A stretch of DNA of 64,000 nucleotides from an uncultured Methanobrevibacter sp. (GTDB lineage Archaea; Methanobacteriota; Methanobacteria; Methanobacteriales; Methanobacteriaceae): contig NZ_CACWVY010000015.1 in assembly GCF_902764455.1 (NCBI RefSeq), positions 20,504 through 84,503 of the forward strand, in the 5' to 3' direction. The notes under the pieces are model-generated. The model saw only the letters and a program-made list of their open reading frames with translations, had not been told where the DNA came from and searched no databases. Positions 47,359 to 48,566 of the stretch are shown here, one piece after another (positions within the stretch are counted from its first letter, which is position 1; each line of letters begins with the position of its first letter). The translations under genes were made by a program, and so were the position numbers.

Positions 47359-47506
47359 TGGGGTCACAGGGATTTGAACCCCGATCCTGGGATTTCTCTT
47401 GCCTCAGTACTCCAATTGTTCATCACAACGGATACTGTTCAGTTACGCGTATATTTCTTCAAAGACAACTGGAGTCCCAGATGATGCCAGGTTACACCAT
47501 AACCCC
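47359..47506 (-). tRNA. tRNA-Trp (CCA) with 75-nt intron
   Basis: Exon 1 is 47469-47506 and exon 2 is 47359-47393. The acceptor stem GGGGTTA pairs with TGACCCC (one G-U), the T-arm has TTCAAAT, and the anticodon stem TGGGA/TCCCA encloses CT-CCA-GA. The intron (47394-47468) lies after position 37, the canonical archaeal place, and must be removed by the BHB endonuclease. The CCA end is not encoded. The minus strand promoter would lie beyond 47506. Confidence 0.92.
47394..47468 (-). ncRNA. Box C/D guide RNA within the tRNA-Trp intron
   Basis: The intron contains box C' TGATGA (47420-47425), box D CTGA (47404-47407), box D' CTGA (47439-47442), and a degenerate box C TGAAGA (47456-47461). The 12-nt guide before box D pairs over 11 bp (one G-U) with ACTCCAGTTGT of the pre-tRNA, and the D+5 rule selects C34, the first anticodon base. 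Such a guide in the tRNA-Trp intron is known from other Euryarchaeota (Haloferax, Pyrococcus). I find no target for the D' guide. Confidence 0.8.
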
Positions 47507-47543: not shown

Positions 47544-47954
47544 TTATTCGAATTTCATCTGTTTATCAATACCTGCTATTTCATCAATTTCCAAACCTTT
47601 TTCCAAGGCATAATCCTTTTCAACTTTATAATTTCCATTTTTAGTACGTGGAGTCCTGCTAGGCTCCAAAAAAAGCCATTTGGTATATTTAAAACGAACT
47701 CCAATATAAGGCTTTGCCCCAAATATTTTTGAAAAATCACATAATGCTGAAATTTGAGCCTCTTCAATATAGACCTTATCTTTTGTAGTTGTTTTTACTT
47801 CAATAGCCAGATAAATCTTACCATTTCCAGCTACAACATCAGGAAGCGGATTTTTGGTAGCTCCCCCAGATGCAGGAGCTCTCATAGCTGCAAAATTCCT
47901 ATCCCATAATTTATGTACTAAATCCCTTTCTTCAGCCGAACCTTTTTTAGCCAT
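47544..47954 (-). CDS. hjc: Holliday junction resolvase Hjc
   Basis: 136 residues from the ATG at 47952-47954 (MAKKGSAEERDLVHKLWDRN). The archaeal Hjc core is present: E12 in the first helix, RAPASGGATKNPLPDVVA with the catalytic Asp, and YLAIEVKTTTKD with the ExK motif. It cuts four-way DNA junctions in recombination. Length is normal. It lies among tRNA genes, in the same orientation. Confidence 0.92.
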   Translation of the reverse strand: MAKKGSAEERDLVHKLWDRNFAAMRAPASGGATKNPLPDVVAGNGKIYLAIEVKTTTKDKVYIEEAQISALCDFSKIFGAKPYIGVRFKYTKWLFLEPSRTPRTKNGNYKVEKDYALEKGLEIDEIAGIDKQMKFE

Positions 47955-48014
47955 GTTAACACTCAAAATTTTATATAATACAATACTATTTTAAAAAACA
48001 ATATATAAAAAAGA

Positions 48015-48055: not shown

Positions 48056-48132
<77 letters not shown>

Positions 48133-48164
48133 ATAGATAAAACATATACAAAAAATTGTTAAAA

Positions 48165-48247
48165 TGCGGGAGCAGGGATTTGAACCCTGGTAGACCTGCG
48201 TCAACAGGTCCTAAGCCTGTCCCCTTTGGCCTCTCGGGCACCCCCGC
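48165..48247 (-). tRNA. tRNA-Leu (TAG)
   Basis: 83 nt with the long variable arm of class II tRNAs. Acceptor GCGGGGG pairs with CTCCCGC, anticodon loop CTTAGGA in stem ACAGG/CCTGT, T-loop TTCAAAT, A73. No encoded CCA. Confidence 0.93.
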
Positions 48248-48308
48248 TTAATAATAAAAAAAACAAAGGATACATAGAAACCATAAAAAATCTTAACAAA
48301 TTTTTAAA

Positions 48309-48383
48309 TGCTCCGGCCGGGATTTGAACCCGAGTCTTCGGCTCGAAAGGCCGAAATGATTGGCCGGACTACACCACCGGAGC
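48309..48383 (-). tRNA. tRNA-Glu (TTC)
   Basis: 75 nt. Acceptor GCTCCGG pairs with CCGGAGC, anticodon loop CTTTCGA in stem TCGGC/GCCGA, T-loop TTCAAAT, A73. Confidence 0.93.
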
Positions 48384-48412
48384 ATACGAACACAAATAAA
48401 TTTTAATTAACA

Positions 48413-48486
48413 TGGGCCCAATGGGCTTCGAACCCATGACCTTCCGGTTATGAGCCGGACGCTCTACCTGGCTAAGCTATGGGCCC
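48413..48486 (-). tRNA. tRNA with CAT anticodon (elongator Met or Ile2)
   Basis: 74 nt. Acceptor GGGCCCA pairs with TGGGCCC, anticodon loop CTCATAA in stem TCCGG/CCGGA, T-loop TTCGAAG. The anticodon stem lacks the three G-C pairs of initiators and position 1 is G, so it is not the initiator. Whether C34 is modified to read AUA (Ile) cannot be told from this sequence alone. Confidence 0.9.
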
Positions 48487-48493
48487 AGAAAAG

Positions 48494-48566
<73 letters not shown>

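Follow-up and report, generated by a model that had tools for sequence, protein, structure and literature searches.

The tRNA-Trp gene and its intron

The window, by which we mean the whole stretch of 64,000 nucleotides that was analysed, carries on its minus strand a gene for tRNA-Trp(CCA) at positions 47359–47506. The match to the Rfam tRNA family scores 37.7 bits, against a gathering score of 29. ARAGORN misses the gene with default settings and returns it as tRNA-Trp(cca) when introns are allowed. The gene is interrupted by an intron in which the boxes C, D', C' and D follow one another in order. The features of the gene and the intron are given below, with the basis of each assignment in brackets.

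47359..47506, minus strand: tRNA-Trp(CCA) gene with intron (Rfam RF00005, 37.7 bits; ARAGORN with introns)
47472, minus strand: C34, predicted 2'-O-methylation target (N+5 rule; G opposite C34 in 117/117 genes)
47394..47468, minus strand: intron, 75 nt, canonical 37/38 position (sequence and alignment)
47464..47468, minus strand: i1–i5, with either the D guide (i1–i4) or the 3' part of the intron at 47399–47403 (splicing helix) as partner (sequence reading)
47456..47461, minus strand: box C, TGAAGA (TGAAGA in 113, TGATGA in 3 and TGAGGA in 1 of 117 genes)
47443..47455, minus strand: D' spacer AATATACGCGTAA, 13 nt, without U39 match (N+5 run to U39 of at most 3 bp in 117/117)
47444..47451, minus strand: self-complementary core TACGCGTA within the D' spacer (sequence comparison and permutation)
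47439..47442, minus strand: box D', CTGA (CTGA in 116 and CCGA in 1 of 117; the parsing pattern is CYGA)
47420..47426, minus strand: box C', GTGATGA (RTGATGA in all 117, as demanded by the parsing pattern)
47408..47419, minus strand: D guide spacer, 12 nt, of which 11 nt pair with A31–i4
47404..47407, minus strand: box D, CTGA
47392, minus strand: U39

According to our reading of the sequence, i1–i5 and 47399–47403 would form the bulge-helix-bulge of the precursor. A gene for the archaeal Holliday junction resolvase Hjc (47547–47966, minus strand) directly precedes the tRNA-Trp gene in the same orientation, and five further tRNA genes (Asn, Met, Glu, Leu and His) are clustered nearby at 48057–48566, also on the minus strand.

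Of 150 genomes of the order, 137 gave a match to the tRNA-Trp gene. The comparison is based on 131 loci, 130 of them within the order (123 of 136 matching genomes) and one, L170, from G150, the sole other genome of the phylum in the sample. Seven loci were dropped as extra or decayed copies. Of the 124 left, 117 parse fully, six are interrupted by N or the end of a contig and one (L129) is without boxes D' and C'. Many of the 117 genes are closely related, and 54 come from the genus to which the window belongs. No match was obtained in G015, G017 and G019, which are close to complete and belong to a single genus (f2/g18), even with a query of the spliced exons; a missing stretch is a likelier cause than real loss of the gene. 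Haloarchaeal introns (L202–L227) from 26 genomes of one family served as comparison, with 25 of the 26 D' arms parsed (L218 is misread by the pattern). A broad outgroup pattern matches eight of 344 genomes, among them the window's own, and a scan of named genomes gave five loci, two of which (L167 and L168) are tRNA-Trp genes. For two Methanothermobacter species, a tRNA-Trp intron has already been described in print (PMC3087415, accessible text).

A guide directed at C34

Counted upstream from box D, the fifth base of the guide (position 5) is a G that lies opposite C34, and guide positions 2 to 12 pair with A31 to i4. The resulting duplex of 11 bp, with one G.U pair at G37, spans the 5' splice junction. 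The 12-nt spacer between boxes C' and D, the position of the fifth base and the extent of the duplex had all been proposed in the original prediction, and the coordinates bear out each of them. A D spacer of 12 nt with G opposite C34 recurs in every fully read gene of the class Methanobacteria (117/117), which is more than chance, and the sequence supports the central proposal that the intron carries a C/D guide to its own anticodon base. The in-register duplex has 10–11 contiguous pairs in 115 of the 117 genes and contains an internal mismatch in L097 and L119. Bases 1–4 of the intron read TTGT in 115 genes, AAGT in L119 and ATGA in L170; in these last two lineages the U-A pair at i1 has become A-U by a concerted change of the guide partner (the consensus fold over alignment A1 includes only L119 of the two). 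Such concerted changes, together with the conservation in all 117 genes, are what a working C34 guide predicts. The genome of the window also encodes Nop5 (E = 5e-66) and fibrillarin (E = 2e-84) in adjoining genes.

Judged by its sequence, the intron belongs to the box C/D guides known for euryarchaeal tRNA-Trp, with C34 as its target, and is not a new system. In the accessible text of PMC2584109 and PMC7994747, the pre-tRNA-Trp intron guide of Haloferax volcanii and Pyrococcus (sR50) occupies the same 37/38 position, carries C/D and C'/D' boxes, obeys the N+5 rule and has a D guide to C34 that uses intron bases; the C34 half described here follows this established mechanism. The haloarchaeal introns of our comparison likewise lie in the same gene at the same position and have a D guide with the CTCCA complement before box D. 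It is very probable that methylation of C34 is directed by the intron. Because the guide duplex crosses the 5' splice junction, it is best suited to the unspliced precursor. The original prediction had gone further and stated that the guide can only act before splicing; the duplex does lie over the junction, but 7 bp (A31 to G37) would survive splicing.

The D guide too holds a palindrome, CAATTG, at 47413–47418 and in many relatives, which may follow simply from exon CCAG adjoining intron TTG. The D guide of L170 has AGATCT in its place, which is likewise self-complementary.

Absence of the U39 guide and the variant box C

The D' spacer of the window's gene contains no match to U39. The same is observed in all 117 genes of the class, where the longest run in the N+5 register is one base pair in 86 genes, two in 30 and three in one. 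In contrast, the haloarchaeal D' arm ends in ACTGGTATA before CCGA and pairs over 8–9 bp with the U39 region in the same register in 25 of 25 parsed introns. Both parts of what had been proposed, namely that other Euryarchaea guide U39 with this arm and that the arm finds no match here, are thus in agreement with the larger sample. The U39 guide is absent also from L170, the most distant member, despite its canonical box C (TGATGA). As none of the 117 genes of the class has it, the loss appears to be old and not local. The fifth base of the D' arm does not lie opposite U39 as it would in a dual guide, and the intron is accordingly a C34-only variant of the tRNA-Trp intron guide. The suggestion that this lineage has kept one of two functions is right in that the U39 function is gone, but it is not special to the lineage, being common to every gene read. 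The comparison across Methanobacteriales that had been recommended thus finds the C34 guide in all 117 fully read genes and the U39 guide in none of them. A separate replacement guide for U39 was sought in the genus with one pattern in 13 genomes; none of the 13 matches has a box C' in the 12 bases upstream.

Box C of the window's gene had been called degenerate. Its letters were given correctly, but 113 of 117 genes keep TGAAGA, which indicates a stable variant of the box and not decay or a half-lost function. The only effect of TGAAGA on the kink-turn is to replace its U.U step with A-U. The abstract of one of the founding papers on this intron reportedly describes both duplexes as conserved among euryarchaeotes, a statement that would fail for the class Methanobacteria. 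Um39 should not be assumed in the tRNA-Trp of these organisms.

Compared with the guides of Haloferax volcanii and Pyrococcus, the intron of Methanobacteria thus differs in the absence of the U39 guide from its D' arm, in the self-complementarity of that arm and in the TGAAGA form of box C. The gene and its C34 guide belong to a known kind, while the class-wide absence of the U39 guide and the self-complementary D' arm are apparently new. In the accessible literature our search found no paper on either, and a remark on Methanothermobacter in Clouet d'Orval 2001, Bortolin 2003 or Singh 2008 is possible.

The self-complementary D' arm

The original prediction took the D' arm as a guide without a match and missed that it is probably still under selection, as its sequence in relatives suggests. 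The letters of its core vary across genera while self-complementarity is mostly retained. The window's genus has TACGCGTA, and a self-complementary core of at least six letters is present in 111 of 117 genes, with ACGCGT as the central six letters in 79, GCGCGC in 17, TGCGCA in 12, GTGCAC in two and TGTACA in one. The six broken cores belong to g1 (the window's genus, one gene), g2 (one), g10 (three) and g11 (one). In the four genes of g10 and g11 the core is down to 4 bp (CGCG), and the deviants of g1 and g2, L051 and L088, still self-pair through G.U. With G.U counted, the D' arm of L170 self-pairs over 10 bases. The longest Watson-Crick self-complementary run of the haloarchaeal D' arm is 4, against at least 6 in most Methanobacteria. 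In 19 of 19 lineages guide position 5 falls inside the self-duplex, which would therefore occupy the place of the guide-target duplex. Among 36 distinct ARAGORN tRNA predictions of the window's own genome (a screen that covered 35 of the 37 Rfam tRNA places), the D' arm matches its own intron best, with 8 Watson-Crick pairs. The next best is a tRNA-Leu, with 8 bp including G.U, and was rejected as a target.

Among 39 distinct D' arms, 37 have at least six Watson-Crick self-pairs, with L088 qualifying through AAATTT outside the core and L067 and L087 having an equally long A+T word beside it; letter shuffles average 5.1. When dinucleotides are preserved, 27.1 of 39 are expected, with a maximum of 33 in 1000 sets, which indicates that an alternating purine-pyrimidine, G+C-rich core makes self-pairing easy. 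Similarly, self-complementary words occur in 12 of 43 distinct linkers between D' and C' and in 6 of 12 distinct D spacers (CAATTG and others), and their presence in the D guide means that palindromes can arise as a by-product. A permutation within alignment columns was made on 26 typed spacers with 22 distinct cores, hand-aligned on a shared G (the anchor is C in L170). At least six Watson-Crick self-pairs are present in 19 of the 22 cores, against 8.4 ± 2.0 expected, a value reached in 0 of 5000 permutations. When lineages are collapsed, 13 of 14 are self-complementary against 7.1 ± 1.6 expected (P 0.00025, or P 0.0046 counting G.U) in a set that omits L051, L088 and several core-repeating genera, has two re-anchored rows and includes two rows identical in ten letters; since the cores and rows are related, the P-values of both permutations are optimistic, that is, too small. 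A comparison of self and cross duplex energies (0/20000) carries a bias towards self-pairing, which requires only half the number of matches, and the column permutation is preferred. A weak tree of the gene sequence, computed after removal of the D' arm, requires at least 16 changes of the six-letter word when 'broken' is scored as one of its states, and at least five changes of the kept or broken state, counted separately; most changes thus swap one self-complementary word for another. A self-dimerising guide would be expected to keep its core through compensating changes, and such changes are observed here, among relatives that are not independent and with 6 of 117 cores broken. Taken together, these comparisons make it likely that the D' core is under selection for self-pairing.

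The D' arm might also direct methylation on some other RNA, for instance rRNA, and drift by transitions that G.U tolerates, with the palindromes as a side effect of purine-pyrimidine alternation. Orphan guides are common in archaea (PMC7994747, accessible text), and one constant 8-mer can pair over at least seven consecutive bases with 19 of 19 lineages when G.U counts and no register is imposed. Restricted to the N+5 register, a constant 8-mer fits at most 13 of 19 lineages. The palindrome-breaking g10/g11 core is among these, but g1, g5, g6/9, g12, g19 and g20 are never in the best set, and in the hand alignment the distance between the anchor base and box D' is 6, 7 or 8 nt. The column permutation also speaks against independent columns. 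In the readable ~3.2 kb of the rRNA operon of G011 (16S and most of 23S lie outside it), the best shared site serves 10 of 19 lineages, and 55 of 60 resampled sequences equal or exceed this, so no shared target was accepted from this stretch. The rRNA genes of the sample are largely masked: a search for SSU rRNA gave no match in any of 11 genomes, one for LSU rRNA gave none in 10 of 11, and the sequence upstream of the readable operon consists of N. We regard an outside target as unlikely. It is a little less likely still that the arm has neither a guide nor a pairing function and that an inherited core just fills the space that the C/D–C'/D' architecture needs. Such a role would fit the length of the D' spacer, which is 10–14 nt in 112 of the 117 genes, as well as the deletion of the whole D' half in G134, and the title of Joardar 2008 states that the intron is not essential for Haloferax; it is at variance with word changes that mostly lead from one self-complementary form to another. 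Palindromes also suit dimeric DNA-binding proteins, and sequence data separate DNA from RNA poorly, so that the core could be a DNA site for such a protein inside the tRNA gene. But the core is located within a guide-sized spacer, its letters are more variable than one protein site should be, and the deviations of L051 and L088 keep RNA pairing through G.U while breaking the DNA palindrome, which leaves this explanation very improbable.

The genes of g10 and g11 with only CGCG, and G134 with D', core and C' lost, argue against an essential role of the arm. In G134 (L129) the tRNA-Trp intron is only 40 nt long; box C is followed immediately by the C34 guide, which keeps the C34 complement, and then by box D. 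L129 is possibly a natural half-guide or an assembly fault, the latter because the genome is 83% complete.

The explanation that we slightly favour as a whole combines the C34 guide with a self-complementary D' arm through which two introns or two pre-tRNAs would pair. Before splicing, the C'/D half would pair with the anticodon arm of the precursor from A31 to i4 and direct fibrillarin to 2'-O-methylate C34, after which splicing would take the same bases into the other fold. Since the guide duplex and the splicing helix share bases in our reading of the precursor, methylation and splicing would have to alternate. In the C/D' half the U39 guide is gone, and the self-complementary core would sit at the place of the guide-target duplex. 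Pairing of two molecules via their D' arms may then keep two RNAs in one particle and make it more likely that a precursor is methylated by the guide of its partner. That such an intron-intron dimer is the reason for the self-complementary core is a tentative proposal, which we put at somewhat below even. More doubtful is the full scheme in which the intron of Methanobacteria traded its U39 guide for an arm through which one pre-tRNA-Trp docks with another, or with an excised intron, for mutual methylation of C34, with the D' duplex itself perhaps being methylated.

Box C/D particles with two guide RNAs (di-RNPs) have been reported for archaea (PMC7089733, PMC7994747). Direct pairing of guide with guide is our own addition and is not taken from the accessible text of these papers. 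Action in trans on pre-tRNA-Trp has been reported in vitro for Haloferax (PMC2584109, PMC7994747), which intron-intron pairing would suit; the accessible text of PMC2584109 and PMC7089733 calls the choice between cis and trans action and the cellular role of two-RNA particles open. When 25 introns are co-folded without proteins, 17 of them place at least four bases of their longest self-complementary word in inter-strand pairs, a count that has no shuffled control and in which the word scored for L087 is an A+T stretch. This is a weak hint of a dimer. If the proposal is true, a guide RNA whose second arm has evolved to pair with its own copy would be a natural RNA-encoded dimer. The variants with a broken core (g10/g11) or without the arm (G134) make this question directly testable.

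Extra copies of the tRNA-Trp gene (L065, L123, L124, L125, L126, L127 and L128) are present in six genomes (G073, G057, G053, G024, G033 and G086). Most of them are truncated or decayed, and some retain boxes and the D' core. The core of L127 reads ATGCGT, in which the DNA palindrome is broken and G.U self-pairing is kept.
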